32,174 bases of DNA from an uncultured bacterium (GTDB lineage Bacteria; Bacillota_I; Bacilli_A; RF39; UBA660), in assembly GCA_900314465.1 (NCBI GenBank), contig OMVK01000022.1, forward strand, positions 1-32,174. Direction: 5' to 3'. The translations under genes were made by a program, and so were the position numbers. The first letter of the stretch is position 1; each line of letters opens with the position of its first letter. This document shows positions 8,760 through 17,700 of this stretch, piece after piece. The notes under the pieces were generated by a model. It was not told the DNA's origin. It did not search any database and saw only the letters and a program-made list of their open reading frames with translations.

Positions 8760-9431
8760 ATGCCTAAAAATAAATTAGATATTATATATGAAGATAAAAA
8801 TATATTAGTTATTAATAAGAAAAGTGGACTTAATACGATAGGTACTGATAAAGATAAATATCATTCTTTATATCACTATGTATATGAATATGTTCATAAA
8901 AAGAATAAGAATAATAGAATATTTATTGTACATAGATTAGATAGAGATACATCAGGTGTTATTTTATTTAGTAAATCAGATAAGTTAAAGAAAGACTTGC
9001 AAGATAATTGGGATAATTACGTAACTAATAGGGAATATATTGGTATTATCGAAGGTCATTTAAAAGATAAAAAAGGTAGTATTAAATTATATCTTAATGA
9101 AAATAGCGAACATTATGTATATGTAACTGATAATAGACATGGGCATATTAGTATTACCAATTATGAAGTTATTAAGGAAACTAAGAATAATTCTGTAGTT
9201 AGAATTAATATTGAAACAGGAAGAAAGAATCAGATAAGAGTAGTATTTGCTTATTTAGGTCATCCACTTATTGGTGATAAGAAATATGGTTCTAAATATA
9301 ATAATACTAATATGTTATTACATGCTTATAAGTTGAAATTATATTATCCAGTTATAAAAAAAGAAATAGAGTTTGTAGCTCCACTTCCAAGTTATTTTAA
9401 TAAATATATTGATTATACTGAATTAAAGTAG
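8760..9431 (+). CDS. RluA-family RNA pseudouridine synthase
   Basis: Converts specific uridines in rRNA or tRNA to pseudouridine. The family core is present: YEDKNILVINKKSGL, the catalytic motif HRLDRDTSG at residues 58-66 with catalytic Asp61, and the C-terminal ETGRKNQIRVVFAYLGHPLIGDKKYG. No N-terminal S4 RNA-binding domain is present: at 223 aa it is a minimal catalytic domain. The start ATG 8760 follows AAGAGGAGAT with ideal spacing. An upstream in-frame ATG at 8694 lies before the promoter and lacks a ribosome-binding site. The 3' end overlaps the convergent regulator gene by 9 bases. The target uridine cannot be told from sequence. Confidence 0.93.
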   Translation: MPKNKLDIIYEDKNILVINKKSGLNTIGTDKDKYHSLYHYVYEYVHKKNKNNRIFIVHRLDRDTSGVILFSKSDKLKKDLQDNWDNYVTNREYIGIIEGHLKDKKGSIKLYLNENSEHYVYVTDNRHGHISITNYEVIKETKNNSVVRINIETGRKNQIRVVFAYLGHPLIGDKKYGSKYNNTNMLLHAYKLKLYYPVIKKEIEFVAPLPSYFNKYIDYTELK

Positions 9432-9650
9432 TTTATCAGGCGAATCATCTTCAGAATATTCAAGTATATTACCAGGTTGGCATTTTAATACATGGCATAT
9501 CTTTTCTAATGTTGAAAATCTAATTGCTTTGGCTTTACCAGTTTTTAAATTAGATAAATTGGCATTAGTTATACCAACATTTTCTGCAAGTTCATTTAAA
9601 CTTACTTTTCGATCTGCCATAACTCGATCAAGTCTTACTATTACACCCAT
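9423..9650 (-). CDS. Small Cro/CI-type helix-turn-helix regulator (YozG-like)
   Basis: A 75-aa protein that is nearly all an HTH_3/XRE DNA-binding fold: VRLDRVMADRKVSLNELAENVGITNANLSNLKTGKAKAIRFSTLEKICHVL in pieces, with helix 2 SLNELAENVG, recognition helix NANLSNLKTGK and the conserved TLEKICHVLKCQPGNILEY ending. There is no effector domain. A strong ribosome-binding site (GGAGGA) lies 6 bases before ATG 9650, and it has its own promoter with a palindrome over the -35 box, so autorepression is plausible. Convergent with the pseudouridine synthase gene. Target genes are unknown. Confidence 0.9.
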   Translation of the reverse strand: MGVIVRLDRVMADRKVSLNELAENVGITNANLSNLKTGKAKAIRFSTLEKICHVLKCQPGNILEYSEDDSPDKLL

Positions 9651-9683
9651 ACTTTATCCTCCATTATATATCTTATATATCAA

Positions 9684-9711
9684 ATTATAACATATAATTA
9701 TTGATAATCAA
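9684..9711 (-). promoter_or_regulatory. Promoter of the HTH regulator
   Basis: On the minus strand TTGATT (9711-9706), 16-base spacer, TATAAT (9689-9684), then GGAGGA and the regulator start. The -35 box lies inside a palindrome. Confidence 0.65.
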
Positions 9712-9713
9712 TA
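9699..9713. promoter_or_regulatory. Palindrome over the -35 box, candidate operator of the HTH regulator
   Basis: TATTGATAATCAATA has perfect 7-bp arms around a single centre base and covers the -35 box of the regulator gene. It ends directly at the stop codon of the next upstream gene. That it is bound by the adjacent regulator is an inference from position. Confidence 0.45.
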
Positions 9714-9962
9714 CTATTTAGGATAATTTTCATAATAATCTCTTTCACTTAATACATCTAGTAAATTAGATAATACATCATCATTAGTATTATCATATAC
9801 AATATTTATCTTATATATTAATTCATTTAAAGACTTACATTTCTTATAATTAATATTATAAGAATCTAAGATATCTATTTGTTCTTGTGAAAGTTTTAAC
9901 CCATTAGGTAACTTTTTCATCATGGTATAGTTAGGATTAATATCAATATCTATTTTATCCAT
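9714..9962 (-). CDS. Small protein of unknown function (82 aa)
   Basis: I do not recognise a named family. The 82-aa product is soluble and slightly acidic: an N-terminal segment NPNYTMMKKLPNGLKLSQEQ, then helix-rich sequence (IDILDSYNINYKKCKSLNELIYKINIVYD) and a C-terminus with LLDVLSERDYYENYPK. The order of a short proline/asparagine N-terminus, then LS.EQI.IL..YNI, gives the impression of a conserved small protein rather than a chance frame. One base separates it from the upstream membrane-protein gene, and it has only a weak ribosome-binding site, so it is probably translated by coupling. Its stop codon abuts the palindrome of the HTH regulator promoter. Confidence 0.7.
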   Translation of the reverse strand: MDKIDIDINPNYTMMKKLPNGLKLSQEQIDILDSYNINYKKCKSLNELIYKINIVYDNTNDDVLSNLLDVLSERDYYENYPK

Positions 9963-9963
9963 A

Positions 9964-10335
9964 TTACTTATTCAATAACTTAGAAAAATCAAAATCATTT
10001 AAGAAATAATAACCTGCATATACTATAATAACAAACATTATTATAAAGAATAATACAGGAAGAAAATCAGTAAATTTAGCCTTTTGTTTTTCTTCAATCT
10101 TATTTATTTTTATACTTGTATTAGTATTTTTTATTTCTTTCTTTTCTTTAATATTTTCTTGTATTTCATGTATTTCTTTTTTATTAAATAGACGTGTATC
10201 TACATAATCTTCATCTTTATCAAAATAATTATTACCATGAATAGACTTTTCTATTTCATCAATCTTACTATCAAAGTCCGGTAATAAGTTATTATCAGTA
10301 TCATATAATTTAATTGTATTATTACTATTATGCAT
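9964..10335 (-). CDS. Unknown protein with one C-terminal membrane helix (123 aa)
   Basis: Not recognised. Residues 1-90 are polar, highly charged and probably disordered or coiled (HEIQENIKEKKEIKNTNT and similar). Residues about 95-114 (FLPVLFFIIMFVIIVYAGYYF) form a single membrane helix, followed by a short tail DFDFSKLLNK. This tail-anchored-like arrangement puts the charged part in the cytoplasm. First gene of a two-gene operon with the 82-aa gene; a sigma-A-like promoter lies about 25 bases upstream. Codon use matches the neighbours. Confidence 0.7.
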   Translation of the reverse strand: MHNSNNTIKLYDTDNNLLPDFDSKIDEIEKSIHGNNYFDKDEDYVDTRLFNKKEIHEIQENIKEKKEIKNTNTSIKINKIEEKQKAKFTDFLPVLFFIIMFVIIVYAGYYFLNDFDFSKLLNK

Positions 10336-10358
10336 AAGATCATCTCTATGTGAATATT

Positions 10359-10386
10359 AGCATAAAGTAGCGATAAAAGCAATCAA
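10359..10386 (-). promoter_or_regulatory. Promoter of the two small unknown genes
   Basis: On the minus strand TTGATT (10386-10381), 16-base spacer, TATGCT (10364-10359). It is back to back with the plus-strand promoter at 10405-10433. Confidence 0.5.
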
Positions 10387-10404
10387 ACATATGTTTATTA
10401 ATTA

Positions 10405-10433
10405 TTGAATGAAAAGCCGATATATGCTATTAT
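10405..10433 (+). promoter_or_regulatory. Promoter of the helical-repeat/DacA operon
   Basis: TTGAAT (10405-10410), 17-base spacer ending in TGC, then TATTAT (10428-10433), an extended -10 promoter. A full AGGAGG follows at 10445-10450, 7 bases before the start codon. Confidence 0.7.
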
Positions 10434-10457
10434 GTTCATAGAATAGGAGGCTAATTA

Positions 10458-11666
10458 ATGGATTTGAATATTAAATCTAGTATATTAAGCTTTCAAAATG
10501 AACTTAATGCTCGTGAAGAAATATTTAAGAATTCTAAAGTAGTAAATAATTTAGATTCTAATAATATTACTTCAATTAATAATATAATTAGTAAATATAC
10601 TAAGATACCTCCTAAAGATATTAATTATGAAGTAATAACTAGTATAAATAATAATGATTTAGAAAAACTACTTTTATTAGTTGGACTAAATGATACTGAA
10701 GTAAAACACTATTTAAAAGATTTTAATGCTAATTTATATTTATATAATAATTTAAGTGATATAAAAGAATTATCTAAAATAAAAAAATATTTTGAAAGTA
10801 TATCAGCATTAATAACTAATTATATAAATGATTATGAAGAAATAAGATTATCACAAAAGAAAATGCGTGAAGATAAAATAAAATTATACGATAAATATTT
10901 AGATTTAACTAAAAAAGATCATTTAGATATAGTATTTAATGACTTTGATGAACTAAGTGACTTATTAAGTAAATTAAGTATACCTATATCTGATAGAATA
11001 AATATTATTAATTATTTTAATAATATGAATTTAAATATTAAACCGTATGGTATAGAATCTATTAATATTAACAATAAGATAAATAAATTAAGTAAAATAT
11101 ATTTAACTGATAATAAAGTTAATAAGATTATTAAAGAGTATCTTAAAGATAATGATATAGATATCGATTTAATACCATCTATTAGTAGAAAAATAAGTGA
11201 TAAATATAATATTGATTATAATAAAGTAATTAATATATTAAGTTTATATATTATTATTAATTTATATAATTTATATAGTAAATATGTACTAGATGATAGT
11301 ATAGATTTAGAAGATAATGTACTTGAGATGATTAAACAAGTATTTAGTTATATAGATGATGATAGTATGCGTATTATTAATAAAGCTAAAGATATCTTAG
11401 TAAGTGATCAAGAATTATATAATGATGAACTTAATAAAGGTAATGATATAATGAAATATGTCGATATACCACTTAGTGATTTAGAAAATAATGGTATAAG
11501 TAAATCTAATGCTATTAAGTTAAAAGAACTTCCATTAACTAAGACTATCTCAGATACACTTGATAAAATAGATATGTTAGATAGACATAGTGATGATTAT
11601 AATAAATCATGTAAATTATTAAATAGTTTAATTGATGCATATAACGAAATGGAAAAGAGTAATTAA
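10458..11666 (+). CDS. Unknown all-helical protein (402 aa), first gene of operon
   Basis: I do not recognise this protein. It is almost free of Gly, Trp and Cys and rich in Asn, Asp, Ile, Leu and Lys, with short amphipathic helices throughout (for example NNDLEKLLLLVGLNDTEVKHYLKDF at about 70-94 in pieces). There is no signal peptide or membrane helix, so it should be cytoplasmic. It has a strong AGGAGG ribosome-binding site and a good promoter. It is followed after 11 bases by a second helical protein, then by a third and by a DacA-like peptidase, all on one strand. The frame is open over 1.2 kb with normal codon use, so a real gene is near certain. Confidence 0.8.
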   Translation: MDLNIKSSILSFQNELNAREEIFKNSKVVNNLDSNNITSINNIISKYTKIPPKDINYEVITSINNNDLEKLLLLVGLNDTEVKHYLKDFNANLYLYNNLSDIKELSKIKKYFESISALITNYINDYEEIRLSQKKMREDKIKLYDKYLDLTKKDHLDIVFNDFDELSDLLSKLSIPISDRINIINYFNNMNLNIKPYGIESININNKINKLSKIYLTDNKVNKIIKEYLKDNDIDIDLIPSISRKISDKYNIDYNKVINILSLYIIINLYNLYSKYVLDDSIDLEDNVLEMIKQVFSYIDDDSMRIINKAKDILVSDQELYNDELNKGNDIMKYVDIPLSDLENNGISKSNAIKLKELPLTKTISDTLDKIDMLDRHSDDYNKSCKLLNSLIDAYNEMEKSN

Positions 11667-11677
11667 GGGATGATAAA

Positions 11678-13063
11678 ATGAATGAAGGGGAAAAGATATT
11701 AGAATCTTCGATTAAAGCATATCGAGAAAAGATAAATAATTTACTTAAAACTAATATTATATATGATGATATAGATTTATATAAATTATATTTAGATATA
11801 AATGATAAACCTAGTAATTTAAGAAAAGTATCTAATAACTTAATAGATACTATAATTAAAGAAAATAATTATGGTACACATATTATATTTAAAAAGAAAT
11901 TAATACAATTAAGAGATATGTATATAGGTTCTGAAGATTATGATTTAAAAGTAAATATAACTGATGATACTACTTTAAATACTTTTATGGAATTATTAAA
12001 AAATATTATTAATAGAGATGCACCAGGTTTAATAGATGCTAGTGATGATGAAGATAAATTAAATAAACTTCAAAGTGAAATAAATAATAATGAAATAATC
12101 ATAGATACTGATTTTATTAATAAAATAGTATTAAGTTATGATTCTAATAGTTATGATAATAACATAGTTAAAGTAATGAGTTATGTAGGTATATATAATG
12201 CATCTTTAGTATCTAGTAGTACTGATATAGATAATATAGATATAAGTAATATTAAAATAGAAGAAATTGATCCTAAAGTATTAGATATCTTAAAAAAGTG
12301 TGAGATAGATATAACTAACATACCTAATAATCTATTAAGTGATTTAAAAGATAGTAATGTATCAGATATAATAAATGTCTATGAATTAATAAGAAAAAAT
12401 AAAGCAGAAGATTATGGTATATTACATTTAATAAATAGAAGTAATCCAATAAGTAAATTAGTAATATTATTATACGCAACAGATGAATCTATTAAGGGTG
12501 TAATAGATTCTTTAAGAGATAATAATGGAGATTTAAATATTAAATTACTCAAAATAATAATAAATGAATGTATACAAGCATTAATAATAAAAGATAATAA
12601 TAATTTTGAACCTAAATATGATGATTTTATAAATAATATAATATTATTAAAGACATTAAATATAGATATAGATAATTTAATAAATAGAGAACCATTATTT
12701 ATTATATCTAGTAATGAAATAATTAATTATACATTAAATTATTTAGAAAGATATGGTGCATCTAAAAAGAAAATAATAAATAAATGCTATAAAACATTAA
12801 CTATTAATTCTAGTTTACTAATAACTAATATAGATTTATTAAAGAAATATAATGTAGATTTTAAAGAGTATTTTGGTACTAATAATACTAATTATAATTT
12901 ATTAAAAGTTAATGATTTAGATAAGAAATTAAATTATATTATTAAGAATAATAATATAACTGGTGAACATTTAGATTATGATAAAGTATCTAAATTAATA
13001 GTTGATAAAGTGTTTGATGATATTAAGAATAATAAAATACCATGGGGTGATATAAATGATTGA
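11678..13063 (+). CDS. Unknown helical-repeat protein (461 aa), mTERF-like repeat pattern in C-terminal third
   Basis: Not recognised by a firm family. The 461-aa cytoplasmic, helix-rich product has, at about residues 321-395, two or three units of roughly 35 residues that read L..L.ID...LI.R.P.FI..S...I...L.YLE.YG.SK..I, closely like mTERF-type helical repeats (LG.S...I..ll.r.P.ll..s...l). The N-terminal two thirds is charged and helical without a clear pattern. ATG 11678 has AAGGGATGAT upstream. The end overlaps the next gene by 8 bases, so they are translationally coupled. The repeat assignment is by eye and moderate only. Confidence 0.8.
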   Translation: MNEGEKILESSIKAYREKINNLLKTNIIYDDIDLYKLYLDINDKPSNLRKVSNNLIDTIIKENNYGTHIIFKKKLIQLRDMYIGSEDYDLKVNITDDTTLNTFMELLKNIINRDAPGLIDASDDEDKLNKLQSEINNNEIIIDTDFINKIVLSYDSNSYDNNIVKVMSYVGIYNASLVSSSTDIDNIDISNIKIEEIDPKVLDILKKCEIDITNIPNNLLSDLKDSNVSDIINVYELIRKNKAEDYGILHLINRSNPISKLVILLYATDESIKGVIDSLRDNNGDLNIKLLKIIINECIQALIIKDNNNFEPKYDDFINNIILLKTLNIDIDNLINREPLFIISSNEIINYTLNYLERYGASKKKIINKCYKTLTINSSLLITNIDLLKKYNVDFKEYFGTNNTNYNLLKVNDLDKKLNYIIKNNNITGEHLDYDKVSKLIVDKVFDDIKNNKIPWGDIND

Positions 13064-13355
13064 TTATATTAAAGATTATGGTGTTAGTAATATAGATTAT
13101 GATTATATAATTAATAATATGAAGAAATCTACTTTAGAAGCTTTATCTCTTGCATCAGATAATGTTAAAGAAACACTTAAATATTATAATAGTTTGGGTT
13201 TATCTAAAGATATAAGTAAGATTATATTAAAAAGACCAGACTTAGTATTAATGCCTAAAGATAATTTAGTTAATTTATTTAATAAGATAGATAAAAAAGT
13301 ACTAGCTATTATCATAGATAAGGATATAGATGATTTAATATTATTTGGTATTTGA
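13056..13355 (+). CDS. Small unknown protein (99 aa) with one mTERF-like helical repeat
   Basis: A 99-aa helical protein. Residues about 25-70 read as TLKYYNSLGLSKDISKIILK, then RPDLVLMPKDNLVNLF: the order 'LGLS..I.KI..RPDL...P..NL..L' matches the mTERF helical-repeat consensus well, better than in the preceding gene. GGGGTGAT lies 5 bases before ATG 13056, inside the end of the upstream gene (8-base overlap). It ends 1 base before the DacA-like gene. It may be a stand-alone repeat subunit, or a split-off C-terminal piece of the 461-aa protein. I see no frame evidence for a recent split. Confidence 0.75.
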   Translation: MIDYIKDYGVSNIDYDYIINNMKKSTLEALSLASDNVKETLKYYNSLGLSKDISKIILKRPDLVLMPKDNLVNLFNKIDKKVLAIIIDKDIDDLILFGI

Positions 13356-13356
13356 T

Positions 13357-14571
13357 ATGAAAAGATATTTAATATTATTAATAATATTATTATTACCTAT
13401 TAATATATATGCTCTTGATAATTTAACTTTAAATTCAAATGCATATATTATCTATGATAATACTAGTGATATGATTATATCTTCAAATAATGCTAGTAAT
13501 ATAACTAGTATAGCATCACTTACGAAAATAATGAGTGCAATTACAGTAATTGAAAATGTTAATAGTTTAGATGAGAGAGTTACAATTACTAATGATATGA
13601 TACAAAGTGTAGAATATGGTGCACAAGTTGCTGGATTACAAGTAGGTAATGTTTTAACTGTAAGAGAATTATTATATTTAACTTTACTAGCATCTGATGC
13701 TGATGCGATAAATTCACTTGCAATATATACAAGTGGTTCGATAGAAAACTTTGTAACTCTAATGAACAATAAAGCTTTTGAATTAGGATTAAATAGTACG
13801 CATTATAATAATCCGATTGGAATGGATGCAAGTGATAATTATAGTAGTGCAAGTGATGTCTTAACATTATTACATTATGCGCTTGATAATCATGATTTTA
13901 GAACAATATTTCAAACAAGTAGTTATACATTAAGTAATGGTATGAGTGTAGTAAGAGATATTGCTCATATTGGTAGTGTTAGAGGTATAGATGTAAGTAG
14001 AATAATAGGTAGTAAGACAGGATGGACTGATAATGCCGGATTGTGTCTTGCAGGTAATTTCAACTCACATAACCATGAGTACTTATTTGTAACTTTAGGT
14101 GCACCTACACTTAATTTTAGCGATTATTTAAATATCAGAGATGCACTAAGTATAATAGATTATGTAGATAATAACTATGACACTTATACATTAATGCATA
14201 AAGGCGATTTAATAAGAACACTAATAGTAAATAATTCACTTATAAGTAATTATAGTATTTATTTAGATCAAGATATAAATATGGTACTTCCAAAAGATTA
14301 TGATATAAATGATTTTACATATAAAGATAATTTACCAGATAGTATAGATTATAAGACTGATAATATACTAGGAGTAGTAGATTTTTATTATAAAGATAAA
14401 AAAATATATAGTGAAGAAGTAGTATTAGATAAAAGAATTAGACCCAATATAAAAGAAATACTTAAAAATAATATATATTTAGATATATTTATTGTTATAA
14501 GTATTATATTATTTGTAGTAATAATCTTATTTATATTATCAAGAAGATATGTTGTTTATAATAGAAAATAA
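13357..14571 (+). CDS. Serine D-alanyl-D-alanine carboxypeptidase, S11/DacA (PBP5-like) family
   Basis: Low-molecular-weight penicillin-binding protein that cleaves terminal D-Ala from peptidoglycan. A signal peptide lies at residues 1-19 (MKRYLILLIILLLPINIYA). The catalytic SxxK is S54-LTK57 and the third motif is KTG at 220-222 in GSKTGWTDNAG. The second motif reads S113-D-A115 (ASDADA) where PBP5 has SGN/SAN, so the Asn is replaced by Ala. A C-terminal membrane helix (about 375-395, IFIVISIILFVVIILFILS) anchors it. I chose ATG 13357 over an in-frame TTG 12 bases earlier, which overlaps the previous gene. No good ribosome-binding site is present, so coupling to the upstream gene is likely. 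It is last in the four-gene operon; no terminator before the tRNA is visible. Confidence 0.92.
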   Translation: MKRYLILLIILLLPINIYALDNLTLNSNAYIIYDNTSDMIISSNNASNITSIASLTKIMSAITVIENVNSLDERVTITNDMIQSVEYGAQVAGLQVGNVLTVRELLYLTLLASDADAINSLAIYTSGSIENFVTLMNNKAFELGLNSTHYNNPIGMDASDNYSSASDVLTLLHYALDNHDFRTIFQTSSYTLSNGMSVVRDIAHIGSVRGIDVSRIIGSKTGWTDNAGLCLAGNFNSHNHEYLFVTLGAPTLNFSDYLNIRDALSIIDYVDNNYDTYTLMHKGDLIRTLIVNNSLISNYSIYLDQDINMVLPKDYDINDFTYKDNLPDSIDYKTDNILGVVDFYYKDKKIYSEEVVLDKRIRPNIKEILKNNIYLDIFIVISIILFVVIILFILSRRYVVYNRK

Positions 14572-14616
14572 ATATTTAATATTGTTAAATAAATAATTAT
14601 TTGATAATATAAATTT

Positions 14617-14693
14617 GGTTCGTTGGTGAAGGGGTTTAACACATAGCCCTCTCAAGGCTACATTCATGAGTTCAAATCTCATACGAATCACCA
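14617..14693 (+). tRNA. tRNA-Glu (anticodon CTC)
   Basis: A complete cloverleaf: acceptor GGTTCGT (14617-14623) pairs with ACGAATC (14683-14689), anticodon stem TAGCC/GGCTA (14644-14648/14656-14660), 7-base loop CTCTCAA with anticodon CTC at 14651-14653, 5-base variable loop, T arm ATGAG-TTCAAAT-CTCAT, discriminator A and encoded CCA (14691-14693). The overall sequence follows bacterial tRNA-Glu (GG.CCGTTGGT.AAG.GGTT.A.ACA). CUC reads GAG. Position 36 is C and position 37 A, so no other amino acid fits. Confidence 0.93.
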
Positions 14694-14704
14694 TTATGTA
14701 TATG

Positions 14705-14730
14705 ACTAACGTTAAATCGTTAGTTTTTTT
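14705..14730 (+). terminator. Rho-independent terminator after tRNA-Glu
   Basis: Stem ACTAACG (14705-14711) with CGTTAGT (14718-14724), 6-base loop, then TTTTTT. It probably also ends read-through transcripts from the upstream dacA-like operon. Confidence 0.9.
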
Positions 14731-14746
14731 GTCATATATTATTTAT

Positions 14747-14774
14747 TTGCATTTAATAAAATACGTGTTAAACT
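14747..14774 (+). promoter_or_regulatory. Probable promoter of the Cys-rich unknown gene
   Basis: TTGCAT (14747-14752), 16-base spacer, TAAACT (14769-14774), followed by GGAAGTG and the start codon. Confidence 0.45.
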
Positions 14775-14800
14775 AAAGAATAAGTTTTGGAAGTGTATTT

Positions 14801-15817
14801 ATGAAAAATAATGAAATAATATTATTAATTGATCATGGTAAAATAACTGAATTAAATAATAATTATATTAATTCAATTAGTAAAAGAAAAAATAATGTAC
14901 ATATATTAGATAAATTCTTTTCTAGTGATATCAAAGTTACAGGTTTAACTGCTAGTGATATTAGAGATGCTTTAAATCTAATTATTAAACATAATTCTAA
15001 TATTATTAATGAATATTATAATAAAATATTAGATGCTAAAAGTATTACTGATTTAAATATTTTATATAGAGAAATGGTAAAAGATTATTTAAGTTATACT
15101 TGTTATAATAATAACAGAAAATCTATTAAATTATTAGACGCATTAAAAGAAGATAATTATTCTACTTTAACTAATTTTGTAAGATTAGTATTTTCTAAGT
15201 ATTATAATAATAAATTAAATAATATATATAATATTTATAAATATGCTAGTATTGATATAAATAAAGAATTAATACCTAAATTAAGTAAAGAGTTTACTCA
15301 AGATAATAAAGATAATAATTTAGATAAATTAGCTTTTGAAGTTGTTTCAAGACATATTAAGAATGAAATGGATGGTAAACACTTATGTGGTGCTTGTGCT
15401 CTTGATACTTTTATGAGTTGCCCTAAAGTACAAAAGTTTAATATGCCTTTTGATATATATACTTTTTTAACAGGAATAGTAGTACTTAAACCATATAATA
15501 AGGATAAAAAGTTGTATGAATATGATGACGGTATTTTAATACCAAAAGATTCCATTAATTATAATATTATTAACTATAAAGGCAATAAAATGTGTATTGA
15601 TGAATTTAGAGTACTTGATTGTGATAGACATAAAGAAATAAAAGAAGAACATAAAAATAATGATTTATATGAAGATGACAATAACGAAAATAAAGAAGGA
15701 GCTAGGAAAATAATATCTTCTGAAAAATATATACATAATGATGATGTTAAAAAAGAAAATAATGATAAGCCAGTAGCAAGAATAAAATTCATTCCAGCAG
15801 GAAGACATAATAAATAA
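14801..15817 (+). CDS. Unknown protein (338 aa) with a central Cys/His cluster
   Basis: Not recognised. Residues 1-190 are helical and polar. Residues 194-207 form the motif HLCGACALDTFMSC (H194, C196, C199, C207), and a second group is C265, C274 and H277 (MCIDEFRVLDCDRH). Together they could form a zinc or iron-sulfur site, with a predicted beta-rich region between. The last 60 residues are very charged and probably disordered. No membrane helix or signal peptide, so cytoplasmic. GGAAGTG lies 5 bases before ATG 14801. The first gene after the tRNA terminator; the next gene follows after about 40 bases with its own -10-like box. The metal site is an inference from Cys/His spacing. Confidence 0.8.
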   Translation: MKNNEIILLIDHGKITELNNNYINSISKRKNNVHILDKFFSSDIKVTGLTASDIRDALNLIIKHNSNIINEYYNKILDAKSITDLNILYREMVKDYLSYTCYNNNRKSIKLLDALKEDNYSTLTNFVRLVFSKYYNNKLNNIYNIYKYASIDINKELIPKLSKEFTQDNKDNNLDKLAFEVVSRHIKNEMDGKHLCGACALDTFMSCPKVQKFNMPFDIYTFLTGIVVLKPYNKDKKLYEYDDGILIPKDSINYNIINYKGNKMCIDEFRVLDCDRHKEIKEEHKNNDLYEDDNNENKEGARKIISSEKYIHNDDVKKENNDKPVARIKFIPAGRHNK

Positions 15818-15833
15818 AATTATCATATTATTG

Positions 15834-15839
15834 TATAAT
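15834..15839 (+). promoter_or_regulatory. Probable -10 box of the 191-aa unknown gene
   Basis: A perfect TATAAT (15834-15839) sits 18 bases before the start. No clear -35 box is seen. Confidence 0.35.
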
Positions 15840-15857
15840 TATAATGGTGAATATAAT

Positions 15858-16433
15858 ATGAATGATAAATTAAATGATATTGAAAAGTTTTTTGAATATG
15901 ATTTAACAGTTAAAAAATTATTAGTAGAGTGTTATCCAAATAGTTATTTAAAGGGTAATATTGATGGTTTAAATGATTATAGTGATCGTTTAGAAAAGAG
16001 CATTAAAGAAATTAAATATTGTATTAATTATATGATGGATTTTGCTAAATATTATGATTTTGATAAAAAGTCTGTTAATGACTTTTTTAATAATTTAGAA
16101 AGAGAATTTTATAATACTGAATTAAATTATGATGCTTATTCTAAATTTTATAACAAATATTTAGCTAATATGAGAGAAAAGTTTGTAAGTAAACTTGGTA
16201 ATGAAACATATGCTTATGGTGCTTTTAATAATCAAGTTAGATTATCTAGTGCTACATCAGTTAATGAGTTATTACATATTATACATATGTCAGTTACTAA
16301 TACTGAATATCTTTATGATGATATACCTAAATTAGAAGAAGATGTAGTAGATAAATATACTTCTAATGTTTTATATGGAAAAGAAAATGAACTTGCAAGT
16401 GATATTTTTCATGAAGTATGCAAAAAAAGCTAA
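15858..16433 (+). CDS. Unknown protein (191 aa), possibly the N-terminal part of a frame-broken gene
   Basis: Not recognised. A soluble, helix-rich acidic protein. ATG 15858 has GGTGA 7 bases upstream; an earlier in-frame TTG (15831) overlaps the TATAAT and is unlikely. It ends at TAA 16431 just after a run of seven A (16422-16428): the codons read TGC AAA AAA AGC TAA. With one A fewer the frame would pass into the next gene (…HEVCKKANKGFTMELSL…), giving one 293-aa protein. So this may be the first part of a single gene split by an indel or by slippage, or a separate gene coupled to the next. The smooth reading across the joint favours one ancestral gene. Confidence 0.65.
   Translation: MNDKLNDIEKFFEYDLTVKKLLVECYPNSYLKGNIDGLNDYSDRLEKSIKEIKYCINYMMDFAKYYDFDKKSVNDFFNNLEREFYNTELNYDAYSKFYNKYLANMREKFVSKLGNETYAYGAFNNQVRLSSATSVNELLHIIHMSVTNTEYLYDDIPKLEEDVVDKYTSNVLYGKENELASDIFHEVCKKS
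16422..16428 (+). other. Seven-A tract at a probable frame break
   Basis: AAAAAAA followed by GCTAATAAAGG. Removing one A fuses the upstream and downstream reading frames. It could be a genomic indel, a sequencing error or a slippage site. Confidence 0.5.
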
Positions 16434-16446
16434 TAAAGGATTTACT

Positions 16447-16755
16447 ATGGAGTTATCACTTGATAATAAAATATTAATTATTTCTCGTAATTATGGTCAT
16501 GCTTTAAGTGTTGAAATAACTAAGATTGATAATGATAGATATAGTGTTGATTATTTTATTCCTAAGATAACTAATTATGAGCTTGCATCTAAATTAAGAG
16601 GCATAAATAGATTAGATGAAAATAATCGTTATGGAACGGGTTCATTTGAATGTAGTGGTAGTGAACTTGCTGATGTTGTTTCTGATTTTATTTCTAAAGT
16701 ACCAACAGATGATGATATACCACGTTATCAAGATTTGTTAAAAGGTTCTAGATAA
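16447..16755 (+). CDS. Unknown small protein (102 aa), possibly C-terminal part of the preceding gene
   Basis: Not recognised. A compact alpha/beta-looking domain: beta-rich start (KILIISRNYGHALSVEITKIDNDRYSVDYFI in pieces), then helices with NYELASKLRGINRL and a C-terminal LADVVSDFISKVP. The frame is open upstream to 16366 but ATG 16447 has AAAGGA 6 bases before it and is the best start if it is translated alone. Its upstream part continues the sequence of the preceding protein if one A of the tract at 16422-16428 is dropped. Three bases separate its stop from the start of the YjbR/MGMT-like gene, so it belongs to the same transcript. Confidence 0.65.
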   Translation: MELSLDNKILIISRNYGHALSVEITKIDNDRYSVDYFIPKITNYELASKLRGINRLDENNRYGTGSFECSGSELADVVSDFISKVPTDDDIPRYQDLLKGSR

Positions 16756-16758
16756 TAT

Positions 16759-17700
16759 ATGCATAAGATAATAAATAATAACATAAATATAGATAAAGTT
16801 AATAAATATGGTTTTATTAACAATTATTATAAAACTAATTTAGATAATAACTTTTATATAGAAATAAATATTAAAGATAACATTATATATAGTAAATTAA
16901 TAGATAGTGATACTAATATTGAATATAATTTAGTAGATACTAATGCTATTGGTGAATATATATCTAATTTAAGAAATAAATATTTAAATAAAGTAAATGA
17001 AATAATAAGTAATATTACAAATAATACTAATCAATTAGATAATATTATTAATTATGTTAATAATAAATATCATAATAATGTAGAATATTTATGGGATGAT
17101 AAGAGTAATTATATTATTAGAAATAAATATAATAATAAATGGTATATATTATTTTCTAATATTACTAAGGATAAATTAGGTTTAGATAGTAAAGATAATA
17201 TTACTGTTATTACACTTATGTCTAATTCAGTAGATAAAATTATAGATAATAAGTATTATTTTAAATCTTATCATATGAATAAAAAGAAATGGTTTAGTAT
17301 TATCTTAGATAATGGTTTAGATATTAATAAAATATATGAATTAATAGATAATAGTTATATTATATCTATAGGTGAATATAAATATTTAGATAAGATACTT
17401 GAGTATTTACTTATGATACCTAAAGGGAAAGTGTCAACTTACTTGCTTGTTTCTGAATATTTGGGTGATAAAAATTTAAAAAGAGTTGTTGGTAATTTGT
17501 TACATAAAAATCCTGATGGTAATAAATATCCATGTTATAAAATAGTTAATAGTAAAGGTGAGCTTTCAGGTAATTTTGCTTTCGGTGGCGCTAATGAACA
17601 GGTGAAAAGATTACGCGATGATGGTATTGAAGTTATTAATAATAAAGTTGATTTAAATAAATATTTATGGGATATAAATTCTGATTTACAAAACAAATGA
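16759..17700 (+). CDS. MmcQ/YjbR-family domain fused to an MGMT/ATL-like DNA-repair domain
   Basis: A 313-aa fusion. Residues about 15-85 are an N-terminal alpha/beta region found with YjbR proteins; about 93-205 is a MmcQ/YjbR DNA-binding-like domain (VEYLWDDKSNYIIRNK, NKWYILFSNITKDKLGLD, SYHMNKKKWFSIILD); and about 206-300 is an O6-methylguanine-DNA methyltransferase C-terminal domain with the helix-turn-helix (IPKGKVSTYLLVSEYLG), Asn hinge (VGNLLHKNP) and active-site region PCYKIV at 258-263. Cys259, the methyl acceptor, is kept, but the usual His of PCHR is Tyr260, so activity is uncertain. It probably binds or repairs alkylated DNA. The strong rpsF promoter begins inside its last codons. 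Confidence 0.88.
   Translation: MHKIINNNINIDKVNKYGFINNYYKTNLDNNFYIEINIKDNIIYSKLIDSDTNIEYNLVDTNAIGEYISNLRNKYLNKVNEIISNITNNTNQLDNIINYVNNKYHNNVEYLWDDKSNYIIRNKYNNKWYILFSNITKDKLGLDSKDNITVITLMSNSVDKIIDNKYYFKSYHMNKKKWFSIILDNGLDINKIYELIDNSYIISIGEYKYLDKILEYLLMIPKGKVSTYLLVSEYLGDKNLKRVVGNLLHKNPDGNKYPCYKIVNSKGELSGNFAFGGANEQVKRLRDDGIEVINNKVDLNKYLWDINSDLQNK

Follow-up and report, generated by a model that had tools for sequence, protein, structure and literature searches.

The 32,174-nt contig of an uncultured bacterium analyzed here (GenBank OMVK01000022.1, assembly GCA_900314465.1; GTDB lineage RF39, UBA660), hereafter the window, carries three consecutive unrecognized genes ending next to a dacA-like carboxypeptidase gene. 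This locus raises the question of what these genes, which we named A, B, and C, encode, and whether their products act together or with the neighboring enzyme. The three ORFs proposed in a sequence-only reading of the window were recovered at their proposed positions, all on the plus strand (table 1). They had been described as overlapping, which is true of B and C (8 nt) but not of A and B, separated by an 11-nt gap. As proposed, the set ends one base before the carboxypeptidase gene: the TGA stop codon of C occupies positions 13353–13355 and the likely dacA ATG lies at 13357, an alternative start at 13345 in the program-made ORF list being a TTG upstream of this ATG. The skewed composition attributed to the set is real for Asn, Asp, and Ile. 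A contains 12.9% N, 10.9% D, 13.9% I, and 11.4% K, and B 13.9%, 10.8%, 16.1%, and 10.4%, respectively, compared with 9.4%, 8.0%, 10.2%, and 9.7% in the 21 other long ORFs of the window; Lys is thus raised just slightly in A and B. A single terminator-like hairpin was detected between positions 9900 and 14900. As it follows dacA and none lies between A and dacA, a single transcript is plausible, and dacA is probably cotranscribed with A-B-C in the window. Promoter-like sites are no more common than in shuffled sequences.

Table 1. Positions of the A, B, and C genes and of associated features in the window
Feature	Positions	Strand	Description
Promoter-like site upstream of A	10405..10433	+	9/12 matches, TG preceding the second hexamer
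GGAGG, ribosome-binding-site-like, just ahead of the A start codon	10447..10451	+	By reading the sequence
Gene A	10458..11666	+	402 aa; acidic and helical, evolving fast; remotely related to B by profile
Gene B	11678..13063	+	461 aa; mostly helical; residues ~193–454 match the mTERF fold
Predicted mTERF-like solenoid region of B, residues 193–454	12254..13039	+	Predicted model and structure alignment
Best-conserved stretch of B, NKxEDxGxLH motif, residues 241–250	12398–12427	+	Within the mTERF-like region of B
Gene C	13056..13355	+	99 aa; mTERF-like along its whole length; most recognizable member of the set
mTERF motif proposed in C, LGLSKDISKIILKRPDLV, residues 47–64	13194..13247	+	From the sequence-only reading
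dacA-like serine D-Ala-D-Ala carboxypeptidase	13357..14571	+	Pfam Peptidase_S11, E 3e-37
Terminator-like hairpin downstream of dacA	14704..14725	+	Sole one detected in 9900–14900

The resemblance of B, and especially of C, to mTERF proteins holds as a predicted fold, the evidence being the AlphaFold models of these two proteins. C was modeled with a pLDDT of 89.7 and a pTM of 0.81 (pLDDT 82–90 over five models), and B with a pLDDT of 85.8 and a pTM of 0.55, two of its five models being confident (85.8 and 82.8, followed by 67.4, 64.7, and 61.0). Foldseek searches of the pdb library returned nothing at E ≤ 0.001 for either model, the best E value being 3.9 in both cases (MTERF1 for C, a chain other than mTERF for B); the viral library gave nothing at this threshold with B. 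The mTERF match of both models became clear only in a second look with VIA-align. When 19 chains were realigned with the C model, the ten that reached Z ≥ 2 were all of the mTERF family; the Tetrahymena mitoribosomal protein mS93 came first (Z 10.3; 2.3 Å for 95 residues), and scores of 6.6–7.9 were obtained for MTERF1, MTERF3, and MTERF4. With the B model, ranks 1–11 were all occupied by MTERF1, MTERF3, or MTERF4 over residues 123–454, and these scores (Z 8.3–11.0), like those of C, are subject to the caveat of VIA-align that helical repeats with Z below about 13 may reflect a common arrangement. TAL effectors, which consist of long tandem repeats, form the second-best structural group for B and are clearly weaker (Z 4.7–6.4); unrelated chains follow at 4.5 or less. 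By VIA-align, both predicted models match the mTERF-type alpha-solenoid fold. Sequence identity in the structural alignments with human MTERF1, MTERF3, and MTERF4 and with mS93 is 10–18% for C and 10–14% for B. The fold of these proteins is the one predicted for C and for the C-terminal part of B but, unlike the set, they are single polypeptides of eukaryotic organelles.

Sequence comparisons point to the same family. The C protein of the window matches the Pfam mTERF profile (PF02536) with an E value of 0.016 and 14.6 bits, below the curated cut-off of 23.1 bits. Matches at E ≤ 1 were obtained for 6 of 14 close C relatives (best 2e-4) and for 13 of 38 diverse C members (best 6.7e-5). Neither A nor B matches mTERF in Pfam, and B has no Pfam match of any kind. 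As no protein of the window exceeds the Pfam cut-off, we call A, B, and C mTERF-like relatives rather than members of the family; at E ≤ 0.001, PF02536 is absent from all 11 genomes of the window's genus. In the published description of the mTERF repeat motif (PMC11417379), position 8 is a proline, and positions 11, 18, and 25 are hydrophobic. C of the window contains KRPDLV, and many relatives have another residue instead of the proline (A8, A10); R60 is invariant across 23 C sequences. TPR and Pumilio-type repeats had been put forward for comparison together with mTERF, and only the latter found a match, the weak one of C: at E ≤ 1, no TPR or PUF Pfam family matched A, B, C, the 14 close C relatives, or 13 B relatives, and none is among the best 25 of the 41 families listed for the 38 C members. 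HHH_RecD2 matches occur in 6 of these 38 members (best 4.5e-4). Profiles made from the B and C alignments found only chance-level matches among the sequences of solved structures. For A, the Pfam matches to GatC and ATP12 (E 0.037 and 0.19) and the NCBIfam match to gatC (0.0091) were dropped because they are far below cut-off. None of the PADLOC models for anti-phage defence matched A, B, or C at E ≤ 0.1.

The link between C and the Pfam family is provided by a genome of a sister genus (G018), in which six stretches are above the Pfam mTERF cut-off. Three small acidic proteins of this genome, among those above the cut-off, were found by both PF02536 and the C profile (E 4e-9 to 3e-6 with the latter), and their hhalign comparison with C gave an E value of 2.5e-7 (reversed control 0.12). 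By profile comparison, these intermediate proteins connect C to Pfam mTERF. Two longer G018 proteins, of 254 and 388 aa, come from the same bacterial family as the set and carry mTERF repeats above the Pfam cut-off; the C cluster aligned with each at an E value of about 0.003. The 254-aa protein has clear mTERF repeats, and its best match among solved structures is mS93 (E 1.2e-11). Both differ from the set in being basic (pI 9.2–9.3), in having longer recognizable repeat runs, and in the absence of a C gene after them. PF02536 stretches of G018 lie on the minus strand of contig C42 (locus L187, 4430–5194 and 2857–4023) and on the further contigs C75, C86, and C36 (L144, L146, and L147).

Nonsignificant Foldseek E values, Pfam mTERF scores under the cut-off, and the ease with which helical repeats give middling Z scores would all fit generic helical repeat proteins, whose mTERF likeness would be due to convergence or to a modeling effect. 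We consider this quite unlikely, as each of the two models drew mTERF matches unanimously, sequence comparison leads independently to the same family, and intermediate sequences were found with reversed and shuffled controls. It is on the strength of this independent sequence evidence that we accepted the mTERF likeness despite the middling Z scores and the Foldseek E values.

We then considered the three genes as a unit. The 87 loci scanned for gene order yielded 84 C domains, of which 77 are stand-alone genes and 7 end longer proteins; these 84 are not independent, since several come from near-identical species or are second copies from one genome. The three loci without a C entry are the G018 locus L187, which has no C, and L012 and L026, in which C is present and was dropped by the overlap filter. 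Upstream of 75 of the 77 stand-alone C genes, a gene of ≥100 aa on the same strand ends no more than 25 nt away; 55 of the 77 overlap the upstream gene, and 42 are spaced at −1 or −4, as is typical when translation is coupled. In 67 cases, a second same-strand gene is found further upstream (≤60 nt), ten of these being short ORFs of 61–78 aa rather than a full A. At other loci the counterpart of A is longer, helical as well, and by eye resembles a coiled coil.

Several loci encode fused forms. In all five A+B-type fusions the A HMM spans the first ~320–395 residues, and in two of them the remainder is covered by B HMMs. Two B+C fusions end in C, their first ~110 residues being in the place of B, and each is preceded by an A gene. 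Five other single proteins also end in C; the stretch preceding it is A-like by profile–profile comparison only (A0–F0, A versus C-ending fusions: E 1.2e-7, reversed control 0.22). The window A cluster itself matches the B cluster with an E value of 3.6e-5 (reversed control 0.11), and the four A clusters compared with B gave E values of 3.6e-5, 8.4e-6, 5.9e-6, and 2.3e-5, with 0.11–0.81 for reversed and 0.72–1 for shuffled controls. According to these profile alignments, A and B are distant relatives of each other. The earlier description of three related helical proteins is supported. The A–B fusions, the B–C fusions, and the single proteins joining an A-like part to C support the existence of one complex.

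The operon is conserved beyond the window, in related genomes. Among 98 genomes of the bacterial family, a search with B alone detected it in 3, one of them the window's own. In the window's genus, a profile recovered B from 10 of the 11 genomes, and 11 loci were found with it in public genomes of uncultured bacteria; where the flanks of B were long enough, relatives of A and C adjoin it at most loci. This conservation as a unit indicates that the ORFs and their resemblance are more than chance. The widened C profile detected C in 136 of the family's 386 genomes, covering 59 of 150 genera. An order-level draw gave 67 positives among 146 genomes, all within the window's family, and a class-level draw gave 12 among 198, 8 inside the family and 4 outside; the latter are borderline (E 2e-4 to 1e-3), two of them with stop codons. 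Universality of the C family in its bacterial family was rejected, as a further draw with the wider profile found C in only 56 of 145 genomes. The set is thus carried by part of one bacterial family, some genomes having two or three copies, and A-B-C represents a recurrent gene set in animal-gut bacteria. Identity to relatives is about 31–55% for B and C and 15–39% for A, and the length of B ranges from 114 to 795 aa across loci. A search of viral contigs for a phage origin returned 407 pattern stretches with the B profile and no relative.

C occurs a second time in the genome of the window, as the last domain of a 603-aa protein encoded on the minus strand of another contig (G000:C44, L196:5868–7679), which shows a weak YwqH-like match near its N-terminus (E 7.9e-5). 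In one relative (contig G267:C195, L039/L028), an in-frame stop codon splits B into pieces of 144 and 312 aa; this broken B is possibly a pseudogene or an assembly error.

Until pTERF was described, mTERF proteins were regarded as exclusive to organelles. The pTERF proteins, presented as the first prokaryotic mTERF-like family, consist of tandem repeats and come from a gut metagenome (Hu et al. 2024, PMC11417379). Since they were published in 2024, bacterial mTERF-like proteins are not new, and this part of the novelty claimed for the locus falls. What is new in the open PMC literature, as far as the papers retrieved from it describe such proteins, is a split, three-gene, acidic mTERF-like form of one bacterial lineage: no paper there joins mTERF with RF39, and mTERF, metagenome-assembled, and Bacillota are joined in the pTERF paper only. 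Going by the published description, pTERF and A-B-C are both bacterial and built of mTERF-like helical repeats, pTERF originating from a Bacillota gut metagenome, and pTERF1 binds DNA with a Kd of 1.87 nM. Unlike pTERF, in which 3 to 11 tandem units are found in one protein, A-B-C has diverged repeats spread over more than one gene, is acidic, and recurs as a gene cassette. Within positions 10458–13355, the sole array detected by Tandem Repeats Finder, which misses copies less than ~70% alike, is 29 bases long and has a 15-base unit. The mTERF-repeat proteins of G018 are probably pTERF-like. A widely carried three-gene form in small-genome uncultured gut bacteria would give the mTERF fold a much richer bacterial history and would bear on the origin of the organellar mTERFs.

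The three proteins of the window are acidic (pI 4.95, 4.87, and 5.27 for A, B, and C), as is the family as a whole. Median pI values are 4.83 for A (n = 67), 5.03 for B (n = 75), 4.68 for C (n = 77), and 4.47 for the C-ending fusions (n = 7), whereas the 538 neighboring ORFs at these loci have a median of 5.90; C is acidic in 77 of 77 cases (pI 4.1–6.6). The acidity of all three proteins speaks against a simple DNA-wrapping role. Being family wide, it also makes a serious rival of a protein scaffold, that is, an acidic solenoid of the same fold and in the same complex that would bind proteins, as a scaffold or assembly platform, and not nucleic acid. Such a scaffold would fit the fast sequence change, the variable length of B, and the helical N-terminal parts, coiled-coil-like by eye, present in A or in fusions elsewhere. 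However, overall charge tells little, given that acidity is also a feature of the three small PF02536-positive G018 proteins. Furthermore, pTERF1 and pTERF2 bind DNA in a sequence-specific manner (PMC11417379), MTERF4 and plant mTERF9 bind rRNA (reviewed in PMC8998825), and mS93 is an MTERF-family protein located on the expanded rRNA helix 44, h44-ES1 (PMC7326499, PMC8998825); all characterized mTERF relatives named in these three papers act on nucleic acid. We regard the scaffold as possible, with a chance well short of even.

Our preferred reading, to which we give a probability of roughly 0.55, is that A, B, and C would form one heteromeric, split mTERF-like alpha-solenoid complex of this uncultured Bacilli lineage, with action on nucleic acid as its most likely function. 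C would be its small mTERF-fold unit, the C-terminal part of B a larger mTERF-fold solenoid, and A a distant relative of B. We infer that the three proteins bind each other, and the complex may sit on rRNA, other RNA, or DNA and tune gene expression. The latter role is our best guess by analogy with the characterized mTERF relatives; because the proteins are acidic, we put the odds of a nucleic acid target at about even. A bolder and doubtful extension is that a lineage of genome-reduced gut Bacilli evolved a split A-B-C mTERF machine acting on the ribosome or the RNA polymerase, which one might, just as hesitantly, liken to the recruitment of helical-repeat proteins by organelles. If this were true, reduced genomes would have turned to mTERF-type regulation repeatedly, or such regulation would have bacterial roots.

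The position of the set next to dacA had suggested a tie to wall maturation, which the neighborhoods of C do not bear out. Where ≥500 nt of sequence follow C (106 distinct loci), the next gene is pcrA in 15 cases, dacA in 7, hsp20 in 7, tagO in 3, and rsmC in 3, these names resting on similarity to one query each, some queries having been named by eye. A role of A-B-C in cell-wall maturation with the adjacent DacA would account for the one-base spacing in the window and for the presence of dacA after C at six other distinct loci. However, other genes follow C elsewhere, the loci with dacA are all in close relatives, and profile scans revealed no wall-related domain in A, B, or C. From these counts we take the DacA link as local synteny and consider a wall function extremely improbable. 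A pcrA/uvrD-type helicase gene follows C in several genera (e.g., L091, L098, L202, L203, and L148), and this pcrA-adjacent position, found across two A classes, is perhaps an old ancestral location.

It is mainly close relatives that share the divergent block upstream of A, which encodes a membrane protein, a small protein, an HTH protein, and a pseudouridine synthase. In the window, the minus strand at 9423–10335 encodes an HTH protein and two further proteins, the first of 82 aa and the second of 123 aa, the latter with a single likely membrane helix; the corresponding genes remain upstream of A in 8, 13, and 10 loci of close relatives, respectively. Single loci have rpsF-ssb-rpsR, rplJ/L, rsmC, or rpoB (named by eye) nearby, which is no evidence of a link. 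Downstream of dacA, three unrecognized ORFs of 338, 200, and 129 aa (14801–16755) precede a YjbR-MGMT gene; the 200- and 129-aa ORFs, which lie in different frames, overlap each other, and Pfam gave nothing for either at E ≤ 0.001. The 313-aa product of the YjbR-MGMT gene (16759–17700) is a fusion of a YjbR domain with a 6-O-methylguanine-DNA methyltransferase DNA-binding domain.
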